Below are positions 37,761 through 53,089 of a stretch of 53,327 nucleotides of DNA, piece after piece (the first letter of the stretch is position 1; each line of letters opens with the position of its first letter). A program made the translations under genes and the position numbers. The notes under the pieces were generated by a model. The model was not told the origin of the DNA and made no database searches. It saw only the letters and a program-made list of their open reading frames with translations. Source of the stretch: an uncultured Mycoplasmatota bacterium (GTDB lineage Bacteria; Bacillota_I; Bacilli_A; RF39; UBA660); assembly GCA_947646095.1 (NCBI GenBank), contig CANSFI010000010.1:1-53327 (forward strand), read 5' to 3'.

Positions 37761-38972
37761 ATGTATAAAAAATACTTAATTTTAACAGTGATTTTTTTTA
37801 GTTTATTCTTTATTAATAGTAAAGCTTTAGCTGAAACTTTGAAACAGACTTATGATAATAGTGTTTGGTATGCGATGAGTGGAGGAGGTAAACCATATTT
37901 TTCAAGACAATATGTATCTTATGAAATAGAAGGTAAAGTAGTATATTGTATTCAACCTGGAGTAGAAATAAATACTGATGATTATATAGGAAATGAGGGA
38001 ATTGGTAGTTCTCCTTATGATGAAAAAATTAATAAAAAAATAGAACTAATAGGTTATTATGGATATGATTATCCTAATCATCAAACTTTAAAATATAGAA
38101 TGGCTACTCAAGCATTAATATGGGAAATAGTCAGTGGCCAGAAAGTTGAATTTTGGACAAAACAATATAGCTATGGTGATAATATTAATGTAGATTATGA
38201 AAAAAATGAAATAATGAAATTAGTTAATAATCATTATAGTAAAATAAGTTTTAATGATATTGAGTTAAAAGTAGATGAAGAACAAATATTTGACAATGAA
38301 ATATTAAAAGATTATGAATTAGTAGATAGTGAATATTTAGAAGCTAAAATAGAAGAAAATAAACTATATATAAAAGCTTTAAAACCAGGAAATTTAAAAT
38401 TGAATTTAAAAAAGAAAAATTATGATAATAATATTACTATAATATATAAAGGAAATGGTATTGAATCTCAAAATGTAGGATTTTTTAGAATATCAGATCC
38501 AATACTTACTTCTATAAATATTTATAGTAAAGGAAAAATAGAAATAAAAAAATTAGGAGAAGTAACTAAATTTAATAATAATATATTATCATATGACTAT
38601 GAAAGTTTAAGTGGAGTTGAATTCTCATTATATGCATTTGATACTATAAAGGATTTTAATGGAAATATAATATATAATAAAGATGAATTAATAAATGTTA
38701 GTAAATCAAATGAATTAGGACTAGCTATATTTGATGATTTATATTTAGGTAAATATAAAATAAAAGAAACTAAAACTATTGATGGATATATTTTAGATAA
38801 TAAAGAATATATTGTAGATGTAAATTCACTTCAAAATAAAATAACTTTAGAAATAAAAAATGAATTAGAAAAAAATATTGTAGAAGTACCAAATACATTG
38901 AAAAATAATAACAAATTTATTAATTGTATAATTATAGTGATAGGACTAATGGTTTGTGCTAAAAAAATATAG
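37761..38972 (+). CDS. Thioester-domain surface protein with C-terminal sorting signal
   Basis: The 403-residue protein has a signal peptide (1-24, ending ALA) and a thioester domain. Cys63 in VYCIQPG and Gln117 in ATQALIWE are the pair that forms the internal thioester in Gram-positive adhesins and pilus tips. A middle beta region and a SpaA/Cna-B-like domain (LSGVEFSLYAFDT to IKETKTIDGY, near 285-345) follow. The end has VEVPNT (residues 374-379), a hydrophobic stretch and CAKKI, a sortase sorting signal with Leu where Gly is usual after Thr. It overlaps a sortase gene by 17 bp, so the two probably work together. The likely role is covalent host-surface attachment. Confidence 0.85.
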   Translation: MYKKYLILTVIFFSLFFINSKALAETLKQTYDNSVWYAMSGGGKPYFSRQYVSYEIEGKVVYCIQPGVEINTDDYIGNEGIGSSPYDEKINKKIELIGYYGYDYPNHQTLKYRMATQALIWEIVSGQKVEFWTKQYSYGDNINVDYEKNEIMKLVNNHYSKISFNDIELKVDEEQIFDNEILKDYELVDSEYLEAKIEENKLYIKALKPGNLKLNLKKKNYDNNITIIYKGNGIESQNVGFFRISDPILTSINIYSKGKIEIKKLGEVTKFNNNILSYDYESLSGVEFSLYAFDTIKDFNGNIIYNKDELINVSKSNELGLAIFDDLYLGKYKIKETKTIDGYILDNKEYIVDVNSLQNKITLEIKNELEKNIVEVPNTLKNNNKFINCIIIVIGLMVCAKKI

Positions 38973-39495
38973 TTTTATTTTAGTTTTATTAGTATTCTTA
39001 ATACTAAAAATAAATTTAAATTCAGAAATAGAAATAAAAATATCTAATCAAGAAGAATTAAAGATACAATATAATAAAATAAAAGAACAATCTTCGTTTG
39101 CTAGAATAATTGTTCCCAAAATAAATTTAGATAATAAGTTATTTGATAAAAATTCTAGTTTAAATAATGTAGATAAAAATATTCAAATAATAAGAGAATC
39201 AAATATGCCTGATGTAAAAAATGGTAATTTTATTTTAGCAGCCCATTCAGGTAATTCTAATGTATCTTACTTTAAAAGTATTAATAGATTATTAAAAAAT
39301 GATAGTGTTTTTATTGAATACAAAAATATAAAATATGAATATAGAGTTAAAAATAGTTATGTAGTAAAAAAAACTGGTGAGGTTCATATTGTTAGAAATA
39401 ATAACATTAATACTTTAACATTAATTACTTGTATAGAAAATACTAATAATCAATTAATAATTATTTGTGAACTTTATAAATCATCAAAATTATAG
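38956..39495 (+). CDS. Small sortase with Gln in place of the active-site Arg
   Basis: The 179-residue protein has an N-terminal anchor (about 5-18) and a sortase core. It shows RIIVPKINLDNKLF, the catalytic His97 in ILAAHSGNS and Cys159 in TLTLITC. The strand after the Cys reads NNQLIIICEL, where sortases normally have an Arg; here Gln166 holds that place. It starts at GTG 38956 inside the end of the thioester-protein gene. It should cleave the VPNT signal of its partner and attach it to the wall or a pilus subunit. Either Arg is supplied from another residue or this is a divergent class. It is shorter than class A-D enzymes. Confidence 0.82.
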   Translation: MLKKYSFILVLLVFLILKINLNSEIEIKISNQEELKIQYNKIKEQSSFARIIVPKINLDNKLFDKNSSLNNVDKNIQIIRESNMPDVKNGNFILAAHSGNSNVSYFKSINRLLKNDSVFIEYKNIKYEYRVKNSYVVKKTGEVHIVRNNNINTLTLITCIENTNNQLIIICELYKSSKL

Positions 39496-42449: not shown

Positions 42450-43259
42450 ATGAATGATAATAAAGAAAATTTAAATTATGATTTTGGTTTTGAAAATCAA
42501 GTTAATTATGAAAATACTGAAAATAATTCAACATCAACCAATCATTATTCAGATTTAGATTCAAGTGAATTTTTATCACAAGATTTATTTTCGATACCAA
42601 ATAATGTGCAAACTGAATCAAATTATATGGATATTAATGAACAACCAACAATAATAGATAATTATATGAGTCAACCAGAAACAAAAGAATCAGAAATACA
42701 ACCAACAATAATGGATAATTATATGAGTCAATCAGAAACAAAAGAGCCAGAAATACAACCAGTAATAATAGATAATTATATGAATCCACTAGAAACAAAA
42801 GAATCAGAAATACAACCAGTAATAATGGATAATTATATGAGTCAACCAGAAACAAAAGAACCAGAAATACAACCAGTAATAATGGATAATTATATGAATC
42901 CACTAGAAACAAAAGAGCCAGAAATACAACCAGCAATAATGGATAATTATATGAATCCACTAGAAACAAAAGAACCAGAAATACAACCAGTAATAATGGA
43001 TAATAATGTATATAATACTCAACAAAACGATATTAATTCATTAAATAATTCAATTGATAATGTTAATGAAGATTTGATAGCTAATTCTCCAACAGTTAAT
43101 ATTGAACAACCAAGAGAAGTAAATGATGTTGAAGAACCTAAAGTAGACTATAATAATCTAAAAGAAAAAAAGAATAATGTATTTATCATTATTATATTTG
43201 TTATTTTAATTTTATTTATTATATTTTTACCAAAGATTTTTGCTATTATAGGATTATAA
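42450..43259 (+). CDS. Tail-anchored protein with 19-residue tandem repeats
   Basis: This 269-residue acidic, Asn- and Glu-rich protein has no signal peptide. It has about seven copies of a 19-residue unit built on ETKEPEIQPVIMDNYMNPL (residues about 64-185), then a linker and a C-terminal hydrophobic helix (about 245-264) after a KEKKN basic patch. It is probably a cytosolic protein anchored by its tail, or exported by the preceding protein's pathway. The repeats are near-identical in DNA, so copy number may vary between strains. I recognise no family. AGGTGTTT precedes the ATG, which is 8 bp after the previous stop. Confidence 0.75.
   Translation: MNDNKENLNYDFGFENQVNYENTENNSTSTNHYSDLDSSEFLSQDLFSIPNNVQTESNYMDINEQPTIIDNYMSQPETKESEIQPTIMDNYMSQSETKEPEIQPVIIDNYMNPLETKESEIQPVIMDNYMSQPETKEPEIQPVIMDNYMNPLETKEPEIQPAIMDNYMNPLETKEPEIQPVIMDNNVYNTQQNDINSLNNSIDNVNEDLIANSPTVNIEQPREVNDVEEPKVDYNNLKEKKNNVFIIIIFVILILFIIFLPKIFAIIGL
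42639..43005 (+). repeat. 57-bp tandem coding repeats
   Basis: Seven copies (the outer ones partial) of a 57-bp unit encode QPxIxDNYMxxxETKExEI. Variation is mostly at four residues: Thr/Val/Ala, Ile/Met, SQP/SQS/NPL, and Ser/Pro. The pattern of SQP and NPL types suggests expansion by unequal crossing over or slippage. The opposite strand also stays open here because of the repeat, with no sign of a gene. Confidence 0.9.
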
Positions 43260-49755: not shown

Positions 49756-49805
49756 AAAATAACCTTAATTGCTAAAGTCTAACGACTAAAGCAAAAGGTT
49801 ATTTT
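49756..49805. terminator. Long hairpin at the end of the XRE gene
   Basis: AAAATAACCTT (49756-49766) pairs with AAGGTTATTTT (49795-49805); inside, TTGCT (49769-49773) pairs with AGCAA (49790-49794), and AGTC (49776-49779) with GACT (49784-49787). It overlaps the stop of the minus-strand XRE gene and should terminate it, and can work on the plus strand too. Confidence 0.8.
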
Positions 49806-50407
49806 TCTTCATCTATAAATTTTCCTGTAAGAGTATTTAATTTTGTTGTAGATTTTATTTCAGTTGTAGGAAATACGCCTCTATCAAATTCAGGGTATTT
49901 TTCTTTATCTAGTTTTTCTAGGTTAGGTCTAATCATAGGTATTAATTCTTTTAATCTATCTAATATTTCATCATTTGATATTGTTTTATTTTCTATTTTT
50001 GAAAGTTCTAATTTATCAATTAAATCAGCAATTCCACCTTTAATGGCAAAGTCAGTTTTTCTTCTTGTTTCTATTTCTTCTAAAATAGCAAAATAGAATT
50101 GTTCGTAAGATTTGATTTGCTCTTGATAATCAGTTGTAGATCTTTTATTTGATAAATCTTTGCCCCAATTTATATCTATATCATCATACCCAGCAAGTTT
50201 CATAAGTTTAACTAAACTTAAGCCTAGTGTTTCAGCAATACCTTTTAAATACAAAACATTTGGCTTTAATCTTTTACCTGCCTCTATTCTTGATACTTCG
50301 GCACAATCCATATTTGATTTACGAGCAAGTTCTCTTTGTGATATTCCTAGTTTTTCTCTTGCTTCACTTATAGTTTTACCAAGTTCAGTAGTATTTTTCT
50401 TCAACAT
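49799..50407 (-). CDS. XRE-family transcriptional regulator
   Basis: The 202-residue protein has an N-terminal helix-turn-helix of the Cro/CI (XRE) type (ISEAREKLGISQRELARKSN, then MDCAEVSRIEAGK; about 13-45). The C-terminal part is helical and may allow dimerisation or sensing; no peptidase motif (as in ImmA-type partners) is fused. It is transcribed away from the gene at 50559 from overlapping promoters, the usual arrangement for a repressor of transfer or excision genes. AGAGGTG precedes the ATG on the minus strand. It is likely to bind the TTGTTG/CAACAA repeat in the intergenic region. Confidence 0.88.
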   Translation of the reverse strand: MLKKNTTELGKTISEAREKLGISQRELARKSNMDCAEVSRIEAGKRLKPNVLYLKGIAETLGLSLVKLMKLAGYDDIDINWGKDLSNKRSTTDYQEQIKSYEQFYFAILEEIETRRKTDFAIKGGIADLIDKLELSKIENKTISNDEILDRLKELIPMIRPNLEKLDKEKYPEFDRGVFPTTEIKSTTKLNTLTGKFIDEEK

Positions 50408-51421: not shown

Positions 51422-53089
51422 ATGGCACAAGTTGAGATTATTGCAGCTAATCTCAAAACTAATAATAAAAATTCCATAAATAGAAATATAAAACGAGTTT
51501 GTGCTTATGCAAGAGTAAGTACAGATTTAGAAGAACAACAAACAAGTTATGCATCACAAATAAAACATTATTCTGAACAAATAAAATCTAACCCTAATTA
51601 TGAATTTGTAGGGATATATGCTGATGAGGGTATTAGTGGTACTCAAGTTAAACATAGAACAGAATTTATGAGAATGATAGATGATGCTAAAAATGACAAA
51701 ATTGATATGATTATCACAAAATCTATTTCAAGATTTGCAAGAAATGTTGTAGATACTCTAAAGTATGTAAGATTACTTAGGGAACACAATGTTGATGTTT
51801 ATTTTGAAAAAGAAAATATCCATACTCTAGATTTAGATAGTGAAATGTTTTTAACATTTTATAGTGCATTTGCTCAAGCAGAAAGTGAATCTATATCTCA
51901 AAATGTTAAAATAGGACTAAAAGCTAAAATGAAACGTGGAGAGTTAGTTGGAAATTGTTGTTGCTATGGCTATAAAAGAGGAAAAGAAAAAGGTACATTA
52001 GAAATTGTTGAAGAACAAGCAGAAGTTGTTAGAGATATATTTAATTGGTATATTTCTGGACTAGGATATAAATGTATTGCTAAAAAATTAAATGATTTAG
52101 GGATACCTACTCTTAAAAATAAGAAATGGCTAGGTACAACAATTCAACATATCATTATGAATGAAAAATATGTTGGTGATTTATTAAATCAAAAATCGTA
52201 TAGTGTTGATCCATTAACCCATAAAACAATTAAAAACTATGGAGAAAAAGAAAAGTATTATGTTAAAAATCATCATGAACCTATTATTTCAAGAGATACT
52301 TGGAATTTAGCACAAGAAATCTTAAAAGAAAGAAATTCTAAAGGAGATTATGGACCTAATAGTGTTCATGCAATGCATTACCCTTTAAGTAAGAAAATAG
52401 TTTGTGGCTTATGTGGTTATAATTTTGTTAGAAGAATGAGAAGTAGAAAATATACAAGAATTTATTGGAAATGTTTTAGAAGAACAGAACATCAAGATTG
52501 TAATGCTATTTCTTTAAGAGAAGAATATTTGGAAGAAATGTTTATAGAAATATATAACTCTATTGTTAAAAATAAGCATAAAACAAAAGAAAAGTTATTA
52601 AATGCAATTAAGGAAACTATAACTGATAATGATTATAAGAAACAAATAGATAAATTAAAAAAAGAACAAGACATTCTTCAAAATCGTTTATCAAATTTAA
52701 TAGATATGAAACTAGATAACTTTGCTAATAAAGAGGCTTATATCGTTAAAGAAAAAGAAATTAGTGAAAGACTAAAATCTATTGATAAGGAAATACAAAA
52801 TTATGAATCACTAGATAAAGAAAATAAATCGTTATCTAAAAAACTAAAAGAGATAGAAGAAATACTAGCAGAAGATGAAACTATAACAGAGTTTGATAGA
52901 GAAACATTTGAAAATATTGTTGGTAGAATTGTTGTTGGAGAAAAAGATGAGTTTGGTAATGAAAATCTTAATGTTGTTCGTTTTATATTAAAGACAGGTA
53001 CAGAGTATACTTATACTCTTGATACTAGTAATGAAACTAGTGTGTCATTTGGTACAAAAAACAAATTTAAATTATATCGAACCACATAG
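51422..53089 (+). CDS. Large serine recombinase (integrase)
   Basis: The 555-residue integrase has a resolvase catalytic domain with the nucleophile Ser33 in CAYARVSTD, the DEGISGTQVKHR loop and ITKSISRFARN. A recombinase domain (about 190-290) and a zinc ribbon (CGLCGYNF and CFRRTEHQDC, about 335-365) follow. A long coiled coil (about 400-480) ends near the C-terminus, as in TndX/TnpX-type enzymes. It would integrate and excise the element at short att sites with a 2-bp crossover, without leaving long repeats. TGAGGT precedes the ATG. It is the last gene of the window. Confidence 0.95.
   Translation: MAQVEIIAANLKTNNKNSINRNIKRVCAYARVSTDLEEQQTSYASQIKHYSEQIKSNPNYEFVGIYADEGISGTQVKHRTEFMRMIDDAKNDKIDMIITKSISRFARNVVDTLKYVRLLREHNVDVYFEKENIHTLDLDSEMFLTFYSAFAQAESESISQNVKIGLKAKMKRGELVGNCCCYGYKRGKEKGTLEIVEEQAEVVRDIFNWYISGLGYKCIAKKLNDLGIPTLKNKKWLGTTIQHIIMNEKYVGDLLNQKSYSVDPLTHKTIKNYGEKEKYYVKNHHEPIISRDTWNLAQEILKERNSKGDYGPNSVHAMHYPLSKKIVCGLCGYNFVRRMRSRKYTRIYWKCFRRTEHQDCNAISLREEYLEEMFIEIYNSIVKNKHKTKEKLLNAIKETITDNDYKKQIDKLKKEQDILQNRLSNLIDMKLDNFANKEAYIVKEKEISERLKSIDKEIQNYESLDKENKSLSKKLKEIEEILAEDETITEFDRETFENIVGRIVVGEKDEFGNENLNVVRFILKTGTEYTYTLDTSNETSVSFGTKNKFKLYRTT

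Follow-up and report, generated by a model that had tools for sequence, protein, structure and literature searches.

The window, a stretch of 53,327 nucleotides from an uncultured Mycoplasmatota bacterium, encodes a thioester-domain (TED) adhesin together with an overlapping sortase, which carries Gln166 in the position of the catalytic Arg and an invariant lysine, Lys139. Judged by their sequences, such Gln/Lys sortases constitute a large, previously undescribed group. We favor the reading, with a rough probability of 0.55, that the two genes form an anchoring module in which Lys139 and Gln166 take over the substrate-positioning role of the Arg.

Architecture of the adhesin and its thioester residues

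The adhesin gene is located directly upstream of the sortase gene, whose start overlaps the end of the adhesin gene by 17 bp. The following features were assigned to the adhesin:

37761..38972, plus strand: surface adhesin (sortase substrate) with a class II TED and one SpaA/CnaB-type domain, 403 aa from ATG (Pfam, PDB 6fx6, AF2 model)
37947..37949, plus strand: Cys63, thioester cysteine of the [YFL]C motif (YCIQ), aligned to SaTIE Cys296
38109..38111, plus strand: Gln117 of the TQxxPhiW motif (ATQALIW), accessory residue and not the thioester partner (PMC6194298)
38469..38471, plus strand: Gln237, predicted thioester partner of Cys63, aligned to SaTIE Gln467
38511..38885, plus strand: SpaA/CnaB-type stalk domain (Pfam SpaA, conservation of Lys264 and Glu336)
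38886..38969, plus strand: cell wall sorting signal made up of VPNTL, a hydrophobic stretch and AKKI (sequence, layout shared by relatives)

Both domains exceed the curated Pfam cut-offs (TED 1.5e-8, SpaA 6e-13), and the protein matches the SaTIE thioester domain (PDB 6fx6) with an E-value of 2e-11. The AF2 model of the adhesin (pLDDT 84) showed fold matches to SaTIE 6fx6 (TMt 0.72) and BaTIE 6fwv. The adhesin combines all features of class II TEDs, namely the YC motif, TQxxPhiW, a downstream Gln and a fold match to solved TEDs.

The original prediction had paired Cys63 with Gln117 in the thioester. While the cysteine holds, the glutamine has to be exchanged: Cys63, Gln117 and Trp121 are each found in 64/64 partner TED rows and Gln237 in 63/64, but class II TEDs use the TQxxPhiW glutamine as an accessory residue and have the bond partner farther downstream, as in the Cys296-Gln467 pair of SaTIE (PMC6194298). 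The match of SaTIE Gln467 to Gln237 uses a four-residue offset in chain numbering, deduced from the construct limits and Cys296. Based on the 6fx6 alignment, the conservation in the TED rows and the class II precedent, we predict a thioester bond between Cys63 and Gln237.

Among the partner adhesins, Lys264 of the stalk is conserved in 97% and Glu336 in 100% of the aligned domains, and these two are probably the isopeptide residues; Asn367 is suggested as a further one by inference. The predicted VPNTL sorting signal was recovered at residues 376-380, and the tail reads VPNTL...GLMVCAKKI. The adhesin has the complete anatomy of a sortase substrate, with xPxTx, a hydrophobic stretch and a basic tail, from which cleavage and anchoring to peptidoglycan would be expected. 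In four relatives (L036, L038, L039, L041), the partner adhesins have a hydrophobic end after VPxTx without a clear basic tail, which is unusual for a sorting signal.

Catalytic residues and class of the sortase

The sortase comprises the following features:

38956..39495, plus strand: dedicated sortase, 179 aa from GTG (Pfam Sortase 1.2e-17, AF2 model, Foldseek)
38971..39021, plus strand: single N-terminal membrane helix, residues 6-22 (AF2 secondary structure)
39244..39246, plus strand: His97, catalytic, 131/131 in the clade described below
39370..39372, plus strand: Lys139, invariant, at the conserved-Pro position of solved sortases, 130/131 in the clade and absent in 61/67 Arg-sortases
39427..39432, plus strand: Thr158-Cys159, oxyanion Thr (role according to PMC9520033) and nucleophile, 130/131 each
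39451..39453, plus strand: Gln166 in the position of the catalytic Arg, Gln in 125/131 of the clade, the rest Tyr, His or Arg

The protein reaches 64.3 bits with the Pfam model PF04203 (cut-off 26.6), and its AF2 model (pLDDT 87) matched 133 chains at E <= 0.001 in Foldseek, with hits to class A, C, D and E sortases (best E 4e-10). Sequence comparison places it nearest to the Clostridium perfringens sortase 4d70 (class D type), and its fold most resembles that of class A SrtA. The NCBIfam models for classes C, D and E stayed below their curated cut-offs (62/160, 41/165 and 46/160 bits), and the generic sortase model TIGR01076 scored 39.1 with a cut-off of 39.35. With sortases of classes A to F the enzyme shares the fold, the N-terminal membrane helix, the His-(Thr)Cys arrangement and a substrate with xPxTx and a hydrophobic tail. 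In contrast to these classes, it has Gln instead of Arg, its beta6/beta7 loop reads Lys-x-Gly and not Pro-x-Asp, and its substrate carries Val instead of Leu at P4.

In agreement with the original prediction, sequence and register confirm an overlapping sortase with the catalytic His97 and the Cys of the TLxTC motif (Cys159), in which the Arg register is occupied by Gln166. Gln166 is positioned at Cys+7, exactly as the Arg of 4d70 and of close Arg-type relatives, and the local motif is NKRLIV in the latter and NKQLIV in the Gln-types. Because the spacing to the Cys is equal, the Gln represents a substitution and not a register shift. A shift that places the Lys or Arg of position 165 in the Arg site was considered and rejected, as the Cys spacing is unchanged and Arg-types, too, frequently have Lys at position 165. 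A conserved Arg elsewhere in the sortase that could fill the site, which had been named beforehand as a refuting observation, was not found; the conserved Lys139 is a candidate for the site.

Gln-type sortases form a clade

An order-wide search supplied 167 non-redundant sortases for a first alignment, which was later extended to 226. The Arg column of the 226 sequences contains Gln in 153, Arg in 67, Tyr in four and His in two cases. A tree from which the two trait columns (positions 139 and 166) had been removed places the Gln rows together in a single clade of 131 to 133 rows, which also holds a small number of Arg, Tyr and His members; the clade is moderately supported (80-90), and many of its inner forks stay open. 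The topology is compatible with the Gln/Lys state having arisen once, so that the link between the two residues reflects one event that was retained and not repeated covariation; with one origin, an independent-pairs test of Lys and Gln carries no information. The coherence of the clade and the lack of an NCBIfam class model above cut-off support the earlier suggestion of a distinct sortase group.

The catalytic Arg has been stated to be universal in all sortase classes (PMC13257024), and our literature search for sortases without it retrieved no natural case among the papers covered. In one close relative of the clade (L122:3737-4387), an Arg replaces the catalytic Cys (LITRRHNTNKQ) and the pair is otherwise intact; this is either a dead copy or a sequencing or assembly error.

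Lys139 as a candidate for substrate positioning

Within the alignment of 226 sequences, Lys is present at position 139 in 152 of 153 Gln-sortases (in L018, the exception, the Lys is placed one residue earlier) and in 6/6 Tyr/His sortases, yet only in 6/67 Arg-sortases. A similar distribution was observed for the 38 scorable sortases of an order-wide Pfam list, which was chosen independently of similarity to the window and whose members belong to the 226: 20 were Arg/no Lys, 14 Gln/Lys, one Tyr/Lys and three Arg/Lys. Conservation of Lys139 in the clade equals that of the nucleophile Cys159 (130/131 each) and exceeds that of Gln166 (125/131). In the alignment with five solved sortases, the position falls on the proline of a VxPxD-like loop motif. 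Two residues further on, at position 141, Gln-types mostly have Gly (148/153) and Arg-types Asp or Glu (57/67).

Whether the Arg serves the oxyanion or positions the substrate is openly disputed (PMC9520033). In spySrtA, R216 forms hydrogen bonds with the P4 and P3 carbonyls and not with the oxyanion, the oxyanion site is formed by Thr207, and in one protomer the carbonyl of Pro188 is in contact with the group preceding P4 (PMC9520033). Using the pattern V-x-P-x-x-V-x-V, we infer that spySrtA Pro188 corresponds to saSrtA Pro163 and to Lys139. As the spySrtA Arg binds P4/P3 and the matched Pro188 adjoins P4, Lys139 is a plausible substitute in substrate positioning, and we put forward as a hypothesis, at about even odds, that it replaces the catalytic Arg. 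Published Arg-to-Ala mutants of other sortases, which lose all or almost all of their activity (PMC9520033, PMC13257024), speak against this reading. Lys is compatible with Arg, since six Arg-sortases also carry it. L282, L289 and L318 are Arg-type sortases with Lys139, two of them with LPxTG partners, and are possible intermediates between the two states.

An alternative assigns the hydrogen bonds to the P4/P3 backbone to Gln166 alone, with Lys139 acting otherwise, for example in lipid II binding or fold stability. Gln is able to hydrogen-bond carbonyls and is 95% conserved in the clade, and an evolved saSrtA with an Arg to Ser exchange is active on another motif (PMC9520033). Nevertheless, we regard this explanation as rather unlikely, as the six clade-type members with Tyr or His instead of Gln keep Lys139, and Lys139 is the more conserved residue of the two.

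Enzyme-substrate pairing and the sorting signal

In 137/153 Gln-sortases, the partner ORF lies directly upstream and overlaps the sortase gene, usually encoding a TED/SpaA protein. Both this dominance of one-to-one pairs and the relaxed P1' residue would fit a scenario in which co-translation delivers the partner to a dedicated sortase, the site is relaxed and the Arg becomes dispensable. The Arg position shows no drift, however, with Gln in 153/159 clade-type rows and Lys nearly invariant, and 21 other overlapping one-to-one pairs from the same order keep the Arg, which leaves this scenario with little probability. A second one-to-one pair type of the same order (L280, L281, L283, L284, L285, L290, L300, L301) consists of an Arg-type sortase and a partner with MPxT[S/Y/F/D], the genes again overlapping.

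Even less credible is a catalytically dead sortase or regulatory pseudo-enzyme, with the adhesin bound to the membrane by its tail. The lost residue is essential elsewhere (PMC13257024), and L122 carries Arg at the position of the Cys; but His, Thr and Cys are retained in 130-131/131 rows across deep divergence and the partners keep an intact sorting signal. Judged by the anatomy of the pair, the sortase is very probably active and anchors its partner adhesin.

A clear difference between the two types of pairs was observed at P4, which is Val in 127/137 Gln-sortase pairs, whereas Arg-sortase pairs have Leu (18/31), Met (10/31) and only once Val (1/31). At P1', the 137 Gln-sortase pairs contain Gly (56), Leu (16), Asp (12), Glu (11), Ser (10), Ala (9) and others in lower numbers. 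As the sortases L183 and L136 are 80% identical, one being paired with a VPNTL and the other with a VPNTG protein, P1' drifts freely. The originally proposed co-evolution of substrate and enzyme is therefore reflected in the co-variation at P4, and the alignments indicate that this position (Val versus Leu/Met), not P1', accompanies the enzyme change. Matched changes of P1' Leu and of Gln at the Arg site, proposed from their co-occurrence in the window and in keeping with P1' Leu in 16 Gln-type pairs, can practically be dismissed: Gly is the commonest P1' of Gln-type pairs, its frequency is not associated with the sortase type (56/137 versus 17/31, Fisher p = 0.17, a measure of association and not of independent events because the pair counts come from related sequences), another Gln-sortase of this genome is paired with a VPNTG protein, and Arg-type SrtA enzymes accept P1' Leu peptides in vitro, streptococcal SrtA cleaving them alternatively too (PMC10763551).

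Genomic context and distribution

The source genome encodes three sortases, each adjoining one substrate. Besides the window pair (VPNTL substrate, Gln/Lys sortase), contig C5 carries a TED adhesin of 839 aa that has four SpaA stretches and VPNTG, next to a Gln/Lys sortase, and contig C3 a 308-aa VPKTG protein next to an Arg sortase (GRLVV), which looks class-B-like. A degenerate DNA-pattern search of the genome for VPNT/IPDT-like proteins returned, among the subset of matching loci that was read, the known partners as the only convincing sorting-signal proteins. As MraY and five transpeptidase proteins are encoded, a cell wall (peptidoglycan) acceptor is plausible; for RF39, probably the GTDB order searched here, m-DAP peptidoglycan genes and sortases have been reported (PMC10868615). 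Contigs C6 and C19 of this one small genome contain two MraY-type genes above the curated cut-off.

All named records that the searches returned belong to uncultured MAGs, for the most part of animal gut origin, with labels such as Bacilli, Clostridia, Tenericutes and similar. In class- and phylum-wide samples, strong matches were confined to the family of the window, and weak matches outside it were Arg-type wherever the states were read.

Elsewhere in the window, positions 42450-43259 encode a protein built of near-identical tandem repeats (ETKEPEIQPVIMDNYMNPL-like) with a membrane helix at the end. A large serine recombinase with Resolvase and Recombinase domains is located near the window end (51422-53089), with an HTH regulator in the same region (49799-50407, minus strand); this region is possibly a mobile element.

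Proposed mechanism

In our model, the adhesin would be exported via its signal peptide, as suggested by the sequence, and would present the thioester domain with Cys63-Gln237 as reactive binding head (by homology) on the SpaA domain as stalk, with Lys264 and Glu336 (by conservation). The co-translated sortase would serve a single substrate, its overlapping adhesin. By homology, VPNT would be recognised and the bond between VPNT and Leu cut by Cys159 and His97, with the oxyanion site at Thr158, and the adhesin may then be transferred to lipid II. The clade would have lost the Arg, which holds the backbone of the first sorting-signal residues, to Gln, and the Pro of the beta6/beta7 loop would have changed to the invariant Lys139. 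Lys139 and Gln166 would then most likely position the substrate, in a pocket retuned for Val at P4. Taken as a natural sortase class with a Cys-His-Lys/Gln site, in which both residues replace the Arg along with a switch from LPxT to VPxT, the proposal has slightly less than an even chance.

Comparison with known systems and implications

The class II TED adhesins BaTIE, SaTIE and EfmTIE86 (TIE proteins) share with the window adhesin the Cys of the YC motif, TQxxPhiW, the downstream Gln, a SpaA/CnaB stalk and a sorting signal. Unlike them, the window adhesin is shorter, with one SpaA domain, carries VPNTL and has its own sortase in an overlapping pair. The pLS20 TIE adhesin p34 is likewise a class II TED adhesin in a Gram-positive organism; it lacks a sorting signal and does not depend on a sortase (PMC8092201), whereas the window adhesin has both. 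On the enzyme side, the evolved saSrtA specific for LMVGG is active without the Arg (PMC9520033), but it is a laboratory product, whereas the window sortase belongs to a natural clade with conserved Lys and Gln.

If the proposed role of Lys139 and Gln166 is true, the His-Cys-Arg triad would not be universal among sortases. A natural clade in which His, Thr and Cys were kept, Arg was lost, Lys was fixed and P4 shifted makes the disputed role of the Arg directly testable. In addition, the clade could yield VPxT-specific ligases for protein engineering that tolerate many P1' residues.
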